Below are positions 8,728 through 12,703 of a DNA stretch of 42,898 nt, piece after piece. A program made the position numbers and the translations under genes. Source of the DNA: Mycobacteriales bacterium (lineage in GTDB: Bacteria > Actinomycetota > Actinomycetes > BP-191); assembly GCA_035714365.1 (NCBI GenBank), contig DASTMB010000020.1:1-42898 (forward strand). Direction: 5' to 3'. Position 1 is the first letter of the stretch. Each line of letters opens with the position of its first letter. Below the pieces are notes generated by a model. The model made no database searches and was not told the DNA's origin. It saw nothing but the letters and a program-made list of their open reading frames with translations.

Positions 8728-9961
8728 CGCCGACCTCCTCCTCGCGCCAGTTGTCCGGGAGGAGGTGGTCGAGGACGTCGTCGACCGTGACCGCGCCGAG
8801 CAGGTGGTGGCCCTCGTCGACGATGGGGACGGCGGTGAGGTTGTAGGTCGCGAGGTGCTGGGTGACCGCGCGCAACGACGCGTCCGGGCCGAGCGGGTCG
8901 AGGTCGGTGTCGGCGACGGACGACACGAGCGCCGACGGCGGCTCGCGGAGCAGCCGCTGGATGTGGCAGATGCCGAGGAACCGCCCGGTCGGGGTCTCGG
9001 TCGGCGGCCGGCACACGTAGACCTGGGAGGCGAGCGCGGGGGAGAGCTCGGGGTTGCGGACGTGGGCGAGCGCCTCGGCGACGGTGGCGTTCGGCAGCAG
9101 GATGATCGGCTCGGTGGTCATCAGGCCGCCGGCGGTGTTGTCGGCGTAGAGCAGCAGCCGGCGGACCGGCTCGGCCTCGTCCGGCTCCATCAGCTCCAGC
9201 AGCCGCGCGGCGTCCGCCTCGGGCATCTCCGACAGCAGGTCGGCGGCGTCGTCGGGCGCCATGGCTTCGAGGACGTCGGCGGCGCGCTCGTTGTCGAGGG
9301 TCTCGATGATCTCGACCTGCTCGTCCTCCGGCAGCTCCTCGAGGACGTCGGCGAGCCGCTCGTCGTCCAGGGCGGCGGCGACCTCCATGCGGCGCTTGTC
9401 GGAGAGGTTGTGCAGCTCGTTGGCGAGGTCGGCGGGGCGCAGCCCCTCGTACATGGCGAGCAGGTTGGTGGCGCCCTGCCCGTGCTCCTCGGCGGCGAAG
9501 CCGGACACCTCGTCCCAGCGCAGCTCCTGCTGGTGGCCGCGCCGCCGCACGCCGCCGCTGCGGACGGCGACGCGGGTGAGCTGCCAGTCGCCGGTGCGGG
9601 TCTGCTCCATCGCGCAGTCGTAGACGACGACCTGGGTGCCGGTCTCCAGCACCTGCACCTTGCGGTCGAGCAGGTCCTCGAGGACCAGCGTCTCGCTCGT
9701 CCGCCGCTCGAACCGCCGCAGGCTCACCGTCCCGCTCGTCAGCACGACCTGGCTCGAGTCGAACGAGCGCACCCGCAGGATCGGCACGAAGATCCGCCGC
9801 CGCTGCACGTCGACCACGAGGCCCAGCACGCGCGGCGGCTGGCCGCCGACGCGCAACGTCGCGACGACGTCGCGGACCCGCCCGACCTGGTCGCCGTTGG
9901 GGTCGAAGACGACGAGACCGGACAGCCGCGCGCAGAACACGCGCTGGAGGGTCGTCGTCAT
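8714..9961 (-). CDS. MgtE-like cytosolic protein: PRC-barrel, MgtE_N and two CBS domains, no channel
   Basis: The 415-residue protein begins with a PRC-barrel-like region (LSGLVVFDPNGDQVGRVRDV), then a MgtE N-terminal superhelical domain with repeated LADVLEELPEDE / AADVLEAMAPDDAADLL units, then tandem CBS domains to the C-terminus. In true MgtE channels these domains sense Mg2+ and gate a five-helix pore; that pore is missing here, so this is a stand-alone sensor or scaffold. ATG 9961 lies six bases after a TAGCCT box on the minus strand, so the mRNA may be leaderless. It overlaps the DUF1003 gene by 14 bp, a plausible membrane partner. Function is inferred from domains only. Confidence 0.92.
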   Translation of the reverse strand: MTTTLQRVFCARLSGLVVFDPNGDQVGRVRDVVATLRVGGQPPRVLGLVVDVQRRRIFVPILRVRSFDSSQVVLTSGTVSLRRFERRTSETLVLEDLLDRKVQVLETGTQVVVYDCAMEQTRTGDWQLTRVAVRSGGVRRRGHQQELRWDEVSGFAAEEHGQGATNLLAMYEGLRPADLANELHNLSDKRRMEVAAALDDERLADVLEELPEDEQVEIIETLDNERAADVLEAMAPDDAADLLSEMPEADAARLLELMEPDEAEPVRRLLLYADNTAGGLMTTEPIILLPNATVAEALAHVRNPELSPALASQVYVCRPPTETPTGRFLGICHIQRLLREPPSALVSSVADTDLDPLGPDASLRAVTQHLATYNLTAVPIVDEGHHLLGAVTVDDVLDHLLPDNWREEEVGGAVL

Positions 9962-9967
9962 GCCGCG

Positions 9968-9993
9968 AGGCTACCGCCGCCCCGGCCTAGGCT
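9968..9993. promoter_or_regulatory. Divergent leaderless promoter pair for the MgtE-like gene and phzF
   Basis: On the minus strand TAGCCT (9973-9968) is 6 nt before the ATG at 9961. On the plus strand TAGGCT (9988-9993) is 7 nt before the GTG at 10001. Neither start has a Shine-Dalgarno sequence, and only 39 bp separate the two genes, so both are probably transcribed from their start codons. Confidence 0.5.
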
Positions 9994-10000
9994 CCCGTAC

Positions 10001-10795
10001 GTGACCGACCTGACCTACCACGTCGTCGACGTGTTCACCGACCGCGCCTACGCCGGCAACCCGCTCGCGGTGGTGCTCGGCGCCGACGACCTGACGACGC
10101 CGCAGCTCGCCGCGCTGGCGCGCGAGTTCAACCTCTCGGAGACGGCGTTCCCGATGGCGGGCGACGACGAGTGCGACTACCGCATCCGCATCTTCACGCC
10201 GGAGACGGAGCTGCCGTTCGCCGGCCACCCGTCGGTCGGGACGGCGTGGCTGCTCGCGTCGCTCGGGCGGATCGGCCACGGCCGCGTCGTGCAGCGCTGC
10301 GGCGCGGGGCTGCTGCCGTTGACGGTCGACGCCAACGGCGCCGAGCTCACCGGCGGCACGCCCACCGCCGACGCGGCGACGAACGTCGCGTCGACCGGGC
10401 TGCCGTTCGTGTTCGCGGAGGTGCCGGAGGAGGAGGTGGCGACGGCGACGGTCGGGACCGCGCAACGCCACGAGGTGGAGGGCACCGCCGGCGTCGCGAT
10501 GTTCGCGTGGGACCCGGCGGCGCGGACGTCGCACGCGCGGGTGTTCGCGTTCGGGGCCGGGGTGCCGGAGGACCCGGCGACCGGGTCGGCGGCCACGGCG
10601 TTCGGCGCGTGGCTGGCCGCGAAAGGCTACGTGCCGGCCGACGGCGAGACGGCGTACACGGTCCGCCAGGGCGCGGAGATCGGCCGCCCGAGCACGTTGT
10701 ACGGAACGGTCGTCACGCGCGGCGGCGCGGCGGTGGAGGTGCGCGTGGCGGGCGGCGTCGTACCGGTCGCCAACGGCACGATCCGGGTGCCCTAG
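10001..10795 (+). CDS. PhzF family isomerase/epimerase
   Basis: Two-domain diaminopimelate-epimerase-fold protein of 264 residues. The catalytic glutamate of the family is Glu47 in the NLSETAF motif; other signatures are VFTDRAYAGNPLAVV at the N-terminus, FAGHPSVGTAWLL and the C-terminal GSAATAFGAWL. PhzF of phenazine synthesis is the named member, but most actinobacterial homologues are stand-alone enzymes of unknown substrate, and no phenazine genes are nearby. The GTG start is chosen because it gives the family N-terminus and lies 7 bp after TAGGCT. The gene converges on 10801-11727 with a 5 bp gap. Confidence 0.93.
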   Translation: MTDLTYHVVDVFTDRAYAGNPLAVVLGADDLTTPQLAALAREFNLSETAFPMAGDDECDYRIRIFTPETELPFAGHPSVGTAWLLASLGRIGHGRVVQRCGAGLLPLTVDANGAELTGGTPTADAATNVASTGLPFVFAEVPEEEVATATVGTAQRHEVEGTAGVAMFAWDPAARTSHARVFAFGAGVPEDPATGSAATAFGAWLAAKGYVPADGETAYTVRQGAEIGRPSTLYGTVVTRGGAAVEVRVAGGVVPVANGTIRVP

Positions 10796-10800
10796 CCCTA

Positions 10801-11727
10801 TCAGCCCCGGTAGGGGCGGGGCGGCGTCTGGTCGGCGGCGCGGCGGGAACGCCCGTGCAGCGTCACCGGCACCCGCGTCTCGGTCGTCGCGGGGGACGGC
10901 GCCGGAGCCTCGGAACGCGCGCTCCAGTTGAAGTTGCTCGGCTGCTCGACGAGCTGCCCGGTCGGGATCAGCCGCGCGACCTTGCACTCGCGCGCCCAGC
11001 GGTCGCCGGCGGCGTCGCCGTCGCGGTTGTTGAGACGCTTGCCGACGAGCAGGGGGACGACCTCGTTCCACGCGGGCGAGCCCGGCGGCACCAGCTCGAC
11101 GGCGGCGCGCCAGGCGACGAGCAGCCCCCACTTGTCCTTCGACCGGACGCTGACGACGGCGGAGTCCGCCTCGGCGAGGCCCGGCATGAGCTGCTCGGAG
11201 CCGTCGAACACGACGTAGACCGCGCCCTTGTGCCAGACGTGCCACACCGGCCGCGACGACTGGCCCTCGAGGCCGTCGTAGGAGAGCCAGACGAGCTCGG
11301 ACTTCTTCGTCGTCTCCTCGATGAGCGGGTCGACGGCGACGGGGGCGCCGCCGACGGCGCCCGGACCCGGCTCGACGAACACCGGCACGCCGGGCACCGG
11401 CTCGTCGTCGATCGTGAAGACCAGCTCGTACTCGCCGACGGCGATCTCGAGGGACGCGACGCGGTCCTCGACGTCGTTCGTGTAGTACTCGCCCTGGAGC
11501 TCGACGATCCGCGGGTGCGAGCGGTACATCGTCAGGCGGTCGGAGGTCCGGACGATGCGGAAGTCCTCGACGTAGGCGCCCTGCGGGCCCGACCAGCCAC
11601 GCCGGACGACGAACGGCTGGGTGCGGCCGCCCCGGTTGCCGAACGCGTGGACGACGGGGTCGCCGGCACCCTGCTCGTGCAGCTGCTCGTCGATGGCGAT
11701 GGCGTAGCGCAGGCGGGCTCTGGGCAC
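10801..11727 (-). CDS. Conserved hypothetical protein, possible FMN/F420 split-barrel domain
   Basis: The 308-residue protein is soluble. The first half contains beta-rich segments around VRRGWSGPQGAYVEDFRI and IAVGEYELVFTIDD. The region WHVWHKGAVYVVFDGSEQ followed by SAVVSVRSKDKWGLLVAW resembles the strand pattern of pyridoxamine-phosphate-oxidase-like split barrels, although I cannot confirm this. The last 50 residues are Pro/Arg-rich and probably disordered. The start is GTG at 11727, eight bases after a TATAGT box shared with the divergent transporter gene. Function unknown. Confidence 0.75.
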   Translation of the reverse strand: MPRARLRYAIAIDEQLHEQGAGDPVVHAFGNRGGRTQPFVVRRGWSGPQGAYVEDFRIVRTSDRLTMYRSHPRIVELQGEYYTNDVEDRVASLEIAVGEYELVFTIDDEPVPGVPVFVEPGPGAVGGAPVAVDPLIEETTKKSELVWLSYDGLEGQSSRPVWHVWHKGAVYVVFDGSEQLMPGLAEADSAVVSVRSKDKWGLLVAWRAAVELVPPGSPAWNEVVPLLVGKRLNNRDGDAAGDRWARECKVARLIPTGQLVEQPSNFNWSARSEAPAPSPATTETRVPVTLHGRSRRAADQTPPRPYRG

Positions 11728-11735
11728 GGCCCGAA

Positions 11736-11743
11736 ACTATAGT
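11736..11743. promoter_or_regulatory. Self-complementary ACTATAGT: shared -10 of two divergent leaderless genes
   Basis: The palindrome reads TATAGT on both strands. On the plus strand it ends 6 bp before GTG 11750; on the minus strand 8 bp before GTG 11727. Only 22 bp separate the genes and neither has a Shine-Dalgarno sequence, so a single symmetric -10 element apparently serves both. Confidence 0.6.
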
Positions 11744-11749
11744 CGGGCG

Positions 11750-12703
11750 GTGGCAGCCGACCGAACCGCGGAGCGCGACGCGGCCCCCCGGGTCGGTGCG
11801 CTGGCCCGCCCGCCGCGCGGCGACGTGTGGCTGATCGTCCTCGGCGTGAGCGGCGTGTCGACGTCCGCGCCGCTGATCCGGGCCGCCGCGGCGCCGGCGT
11901 TCGCGGTGGCGTTCTGGCGCAACGCCATGGCCTGCGGCGTGCTCGTCCCGTGGACCTGGGCCCGGGCGCGGGACGAGGTACGGGCGCTGACGGCGCGCGA
12001 CAAGCGGCTGGCGCTGCTCGCCGGCGGGCTGCTCGCGCTGCACTTCGCGACGTGGATCCCGTCGCTGTCGTTCACGTCGGTGGCGTCGTCCACGGCGCTC
12101 GTCGCGACGCAGCCGGTGTGGGCGGCGCTGATCGCGCGGTACCGCGGCGACAACGTGCCCGCGCTCGGCTGGGCGGGCATCTGGCTGGCCGTGCTGGGCG
12201 CCGTGCTGCTGACCGGCATCGACCTGCACTTCTCGGCGCGCGCGCTGACCGGAGACCTGCTCGCGCTCGTGGGCGGGTTCTTCGCGGCGGCGTACGTGAC
12301 GGTCGGCGCGGAGGTGCGCCGCACCGTGTCGACCACCGTCTACACGACCGTCTGCTACGCCACCACGGCGGTGCTGCTGCTCGTCCTGCTCGGCGCGACG
12401 CGCACCCGCATGGTCGGCTTCCCGGCGCGGACGTGGCTCTCCATCGCCGAGCTCACGGTCGCCGCGCAGCTGCTGGGGCACAGCGTGTTCAACCGCGTGC
12501 TGAAGACGACGAGCCCGACGGTCGTGTCCATCTCGATCCTGTTCGAGATCGTCGGCGCGACGGTGCTGGCGGCGGTGTACCTGAACGAACGCCCGCGCCT
12601 GGTCGCGCTGCCCGCCGCCCTGGTCATCGTCGCGGGCATCGTCGCCGTCATCCGCGCGGGGGAGCGCCGCCCCGCCGTCGCCGGCGTGCCGGCCGTCGAG
12701 TGA
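11750..12703 (+). CDS. EamA/DMT superfamily transporter
   Basis: Drug/metabolite transporter of 317 residues with ten predicted transmembrane helices in two EamA repeats (about residues 27-160 and 170-305). Family hallmarks are STSAPLIRAAAAPAFAVAFWR in helix 1-2, the end of the first repeat with WLAVLGAVLLTGID, and SPTVVSISILFEIVGATVLA in the second. Members export or import amino acids, nucleotides or other metabolites; the substrate cannot be predicted. The GTG start sits 6 bp after TATAGT and likely gives a leaderless mRNA. The C-terminus is Arg/Pro/Val-rich and cytoplasmic. Confidence 0.9.
   Translation: MAADRTAERDAAPRVGALARPPRGDVWLIVLGVSGVSTSAPLIRAAAAPAFAVAFWRNAMACGVLVPWTWARARDEVRALTARDKRLALLAGGLLALHFATWIPSLSFTSVASSTALVATQPVWAALIARYRGDNVPALGWAGIWLAVLGAVLLTGIDLHFSARALTGDLLALVGGFFAAAYVTVGAEVRRTVSTTVYTTVCYATTAVLLLVLLGATRTRMVGFPARTWLSIAELTVAAQLLGHSVFNRVLKTTSPTVVSISILFEIVGATVLAAVYLNERPRLVALPAALVIVAGIVAVIRAGERRPAVAGVPAVE

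Follow-up and report, generated by a model that had tools for sequence, protein, structure and literature searches.

The window analysed here is contig DASTMB010000020.1 of a Mycobacteriales bacterium (assembly GCA_035714365.1), 42,898 nucleotides long. In it, a region of only 22 bp separates the divergent GTG start codons of a gene encoding an EamA family transporter and a gene encoding a 308-residue protein. This region is likely to be a minimal bidirectional core promoter of the sigma-A type that serves two leaderless genes. It contains the 8-bp perfect palindrome ACTATAGT, flanked by CCCGA and TCGGG. The segment 11725-11752 reads CACGGCCCGAAACTATAGTCGGGCGGTG, the layout from start to start being CAC-GGCCCGAAACTATAGTCGGGCG-GTG. 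On the plus strand, TATAGT (11738-11743) is followed by six nucleotides (11744-11749) and the GTG codon at 11750. On the minus strand, TATAGT (11741-11736) is followed by eight nucleotides (11735-11728) and the GTG codon at 11727-11725. The -10 hexamers of the opposite strands overlap at 11736-11743. The start codons (11727 and 11750) are 23 bp apart, and the predicted transcription starts are derived from them. A preliminary description of the window had placed TATAGT on both strands at 6 and 8 bp from the two GTG codons, and these coordinates and distances are exact. There is no Shine-Dalgarno box before either GTG, the preceding bases being CGGGCG and TTCGGGCC. Any -35 region of either promoter would fall inside the opposite gene. 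The palindrome ACTATAGT is found once in the window, compared to 0.01 copies expected from shuffled sequences, and once in the whole genome. Given these counts and the repeated occurrence of this layout (see below), the site is not due to chance.

Both sides of the site obey a spacing rule observed in the genome of the window (G000, 3.8 Mb). Statistics for this genome were collected from 1.78 Mb of stretches, and patterns were searched over the whole genome. The distance from TAnnnT to the next ATG or GTG was counted in 762 kb with no gene starts assumed. This distance peaks at 6, 7 and 8 bp (60, 56 and 23 cases) over a background of about 11 per offset, whereas the distributions for control hexamers are flat. 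Coding-like open reading frames (ORFs) in the 1.78 Mb yield 103, 116 and 42 cases at the same distances, compared to about 10 per offset elsewhere. As for a -35 signal, TTG occurs at -35 distances in only 7 of 261 sites, without enrichment. Thirteen WhiB matches mark the genome as that of an actinobacterium, and its pattern of predicted leaderless starts matches the rule for leaderless genes of M. tuberculosis and Actinobacteria. Indeed, the mapped promoters of M. tuberculosis have TANNNT as the -10 box and no -35 box, and leaderless mRNAs are abundant (PMC3898074). TA-led leaderless genes have been predicted for Actinobacteria (PMC3160421).

Two other genomes of the same genus, G001 and G002, were compared with G000. 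The 22 bases CCGAAACTATAGTCGGGCGGTG are the same in G001, whereas identity at fourfold sites of both genes in the same pair of genomes is 62-68%. The whole of G001 contains a single copy of ACTATAGT, at the orthologous place. On the EamA side, the spacing of the -10 box is 6-7 bp in all three species and 6 bp in G001. In G002 there is no copy of ACTATAGT, since the element is interrupted by an insertion and reads ...GAGCCGAAACTATAG-AGGACG...CGTCCT-CTACAGTCGGCGGGATG. The insert is about 147 bp long, with inverted repeats at its ends and a palindromic repeat at its centre. The flanking CTATAG and CTACAG look like a 6-bp target duplication, and each gene has its own TAnnnT there: TATAGT at 8 bp for the gene of the 308-residue protein and TACAGT at 7 bp for the EamA gene. 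The central repeat was found at ten places in G002, whereas G000 and G001 each gave a single weak match. As the repeat is abundant in G002 alone, the insertion is likely derived, and the shared -10 box is likely the older state within the genus, as judged from three genomes. This interspersed palindromic repeat of G002 is about 78 bp long (GTTACCGGTGAGTACGGACT ... AGTCCGTACTCACCGGTAAC) and was observed at G002:C44:11729-11875 (L027, L080) and at L071-L079.

Several observations weigh against the region being a promoter of two leaderless genes. In G001, the GTG codon of the gene for the 308-residue protein lies 38 nt beyond the -10 box and is preceded by a Shine-Dalgarno-like GGAG. As this copy has a leader, leaderless expression of this gene is not common to all three species. 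The 8-bp spacing on the minus strand is less usual than 6-7 bp. The -10 box on this strand could be TAGTTT instead of TATAGT. With a weight matrix built from 258 other leaderless sites and the spacing frequencies taken together, TAGTTT, at 6 bp, scores 4.96 bits and TATAGT 4.93 bits. Since these scores are equal, the perfect palindrome may not be the functional unit. The sequence, the spacing and its genome-wide rule, the missing -35 signal, the conservation and the recurrence are observed, whereas we infer the transcription starts, the sigma factor and the lack of strong competition.

Compact two-way promoters recur in the genus. The pattern CAY-N6-8-AnnnTAnnnT-N6-8-RTG has 13 sites in G000, 13 in G001 and 12 in G002, compared to 1, 0 and 1 when the pattern is reversed as a control. 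Nine further AnnnTAnnnT sites are common to at least two species, both flanking proteins being orthologous. Divergent pairs of leaderless starts in the 1.78 Mb number eight at 22-27 bp, none at 28-39 bp and twelve over 40-181 bp. The 18-bp arrangement TAnnnTA is at or near the control level in the three genomes (2, 2 and 4 sites, compared to 2, 2 and 2). The class of perfect palindromes, ANTATANT, does not recur: the window site is the only one in the genus whose two sides both have leaderless spacing. In the class as a whole (118 genomes), AnnnTAnnnT shows no general enrichment and is clearly above control only in families f1, f9, f26, f33 and f36. It is conceivable, if rather doubtful, that the genus maintains about ten doubly leaderless bidirectional promoters sharing only TA (20-24 bp and nothing else) as a regulatory class and not as a by-product of a compact genome. 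Such promoters may tie the outputs of both genes together, because leaders and separate -35 contacts do not fit into them. Examples of AnnnTAnnnT sites conserved between species are L170/L191, L158/L173/L188, L163/L181/L193 and L168/L174/L192.

The proposed mechanism is as follows. The housekeeping holoenzyme would recognise TAnnnT on one or the other strand of ACTATAGT and melt the DNA in either of two orientations. Transcription would begin no more than about 2 nt from the GTG codon of the EamA gene (plus strand) or the gene of the 308-residue protein (minus strand), producing leaderless mRNAs. By geometry, one orientation of the polymerase bars the other at any instant. At ordinary promoter strength, one cell population would be expected to transcribe both genes, each independently of the other.

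Warman, Grainger, Wade and co-workers have described bidirectional promoters whose -10 box is shared and pseudo-symmetrical. Three distances between transcription starts are common, 18, 10 and 23 bp, and the 18-bp class is the commonest in most bacteria (PMC12825309, PMC10268837). Similarly to these promoters, the site described here has overlapping -10 hexamers on opposite strands, and divergent mRNAs would originate from a site open to a polymerase in either orientation. Its start codons are 23 bp apart, and transcription starts at these codons would be at one of the three common distances. Unlike them, both genes here appear leaderless, and thus the intergenic region would be nothing but promoter. 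Also, this genus is enriched in the 2-bp TA overlap (the 23-bp class), with the 18-bp class at or near control. The site resembles the TA-led genes known from Actinobacteria and Deinococcus-Thermus (PMC3160421; for M. tuberculosis, PMC3898074): TANNNT stands about 12 bp before the start codon, and there is neither a conserved -35 box nor a Shine-Dalgarno box. However, surveys of TA-led genes have mostly proceeded gene by gene, whereas here two such promoters are fused. Closely juxtaposed divergent promoters were called common in M. tuberculosis (PMC3898074). The prpD/Rv1129c genes of that species are likewise divergent neighbours; they were mapped as leaderless on both sides (PMC3898074), whereas here this is a prediction. 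Thus the site is a well-supported candidate for an already known kind of promoter, and its doubly leaderless arrangement of 23 bp is repeated within the genus and kept between species. Most work on promoters with a shared -10 box has been done in E. coli and Salmonella. About a dozen doubly leaderless, species-conserved sites per genome that can be read from the sequence make this genus a clean natural set for asking whether polymerase competition ever matters, and for the pair of genes described here the insertion of G002 offers a matched natural control in which the box is "unshared".

The preliminary description suggested one shared -10 box for two divergent leaderless genes, whose transcripts would compete and thus be expressed in a mutually exclusive manner. 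The spacing statistics, the conservation in G001 and the recurrence of this class of sites agree with the shared box. Mutually exclusive expression does not follow from the instantaneous exclusion of polymerases, and this part of the suggestion is unsupported. On the suggested reading, the shared box would be an either/or regulatory switch. Overlapping elements indeed cannot hold two polymerases at once for steric reasons, and in E. coli one direction can be repressed by strong activation of the other (PMC12825309). However, such repression in E. coli was confined to strong activation of the opposite direction, and basal activity was too low for competition in five of five bidirectional promoters (PMC12825309). 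In M. tuberculosis, the divergent prpD and Rv1129c genes, leaderless on both sides, rise together under starvation (PMC3898074). Moreover, the overlap is not kept wherever the pair of genes is kept: the -10 boxes are separated by the insertion in G002, and in most other families the starts are 27-51 bp apart and the boxes do not overlap. Exclusivity is thus not maintained. No activator site that could operate such a switch came up in this analysis, nor was one tested. On balance, we consider the switch very improbable.

Another possibility is that only the EamA gene uses the element, the gene of the 308-residue protein having some other promoter or start and the palindrome being a by-product of a good -10 box. 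This would be consistent with the 6-7 bp spacing on the EamA side in all three species, and with the leader and the GGAG sequence of G001. It is nevertheless very improbable, as in both G000 and G002 the minus strand TATAGTTT places TATAGT at 8 bp from GTG. In G002 this TATAGT is intact (CTATAGTTTCGGCTCGTG) although the insertion has moved the EamA promoter to its far side, and in G001 the same hexamer can still serve a leadered transcript. One more possibility is that a dimeric transcription factor uses the palindrome as its operator, an idea that the perfect 8-bp symmetry and the CCCGA and TCGGG flanks would fit. However, ACTATAGT stands at the distance from both starts at which -10 boxes lie in this genome, and its halves in G002 have diverged to TATAGT and TACAGT, both conforming to TAnnnT at leaderless spacing. 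With a single copy in the genome, ACTATAGT is not a regulon site, and the operator, hardly credible on these grounds, was rejected. The bidirectional core promoter remains the preferred interpretation.

Outside the genus, nine loci were found in other genomes of the class where an EamA homologue (52-58% identity) adjoins a homologue of the C-terminal part of the 308-residue protein. Each gene of these nine pairs has an in-frame start and an upstream nAnnnT, 6-8 bp away in all cases but one (9 bp). The start-to-start distances are 27, 28, 35, 36, 51, 51 and 51 bp at seven loci, and wider at the other two. The -10 boxes at these nine loci lie side by side or apart and are never shared. As the pair is kept there with separate -10 boxes, the compact divergent pair is old and the overlap belongs to this genus. 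Conservation in relatives had been named as a check on the shared box: the element is identical in G001 and split in G002, and other families have separate boxes. The divergent neighbourhood in nine other genomes of the class suggests a functional link between the two proteins. The loci with a transporter and a protein of the 308-residue type as divergent neighbours are L007, L008, L009, L012, L013, L014, L015, L021 and L023. At L009, L013 and L014, the leaderless -10 boxes are mostly CAnnnT or GAnnnT, not TAnnnT, and the starts are exactly 51 bp apart in all three.

Table 1. Genes and candidate promoter elements around the shared -10 region of the window
Feature	Position	Strand	Comment
308-residue protein, family without assignment	10801..11727	-	GTG start; predicted leaderless
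317-residue EamA (DMT) family transporter	11750..12703	+	GTG start; predicted leaderless
ACTATAGT, palindromic shared -10 region	11736..11743	.	only copy in genome
-10 hexamer TATAGT for EamA gene	11738..11743	+	6 bp before GTG; kept in G001
-10 hexamer TATAGT for gene of 308-residue protein	11736..11741	-	8 bp before GTG
Alternative -10 hexamer TAGTTT	11734..11739	-	6 bp before GTG; assigns the site to the recurrent AnnnTAnnnT class
Whole 22-bp intergenic region, predicted bidirectional core promoter	11728..11749	.	sequence and -35 test

The protein encoded on the plus strand matches EamA (PF00892) with an E-value of 4.8e-23. The 308-residue protein has no Pfam family even at an E-value of 5 and no NCBIfam match, and a sequence search of PDB gave no convincing match. 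Its single-sequence fold prediction, with a predicted local distance difference test score (pLDDT) of 34, is too poor to use. Both proteins have counterparts in G001 and G002, with about 79-88% amino-acid identity, and codon position 3 diverges fastest in both genes. The start positions are also the same. Both ORFs look like real genes. Matches of the 308-residue protein outside the genus begin only at about residue 116. For this reason its N-terminal third looks like a genus-specific addition, placed between the ancestral start and the transporter gene.

A second divergent pair was observed in the window at 9961-10001, formed by the genes of a 415-residue protein (minus strand) and a PhzF-family protein (plus strand). 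Both sides of this pair are predicted to be leaderless; the starts are 40 bp apart, and there are two separate -10 boxes.
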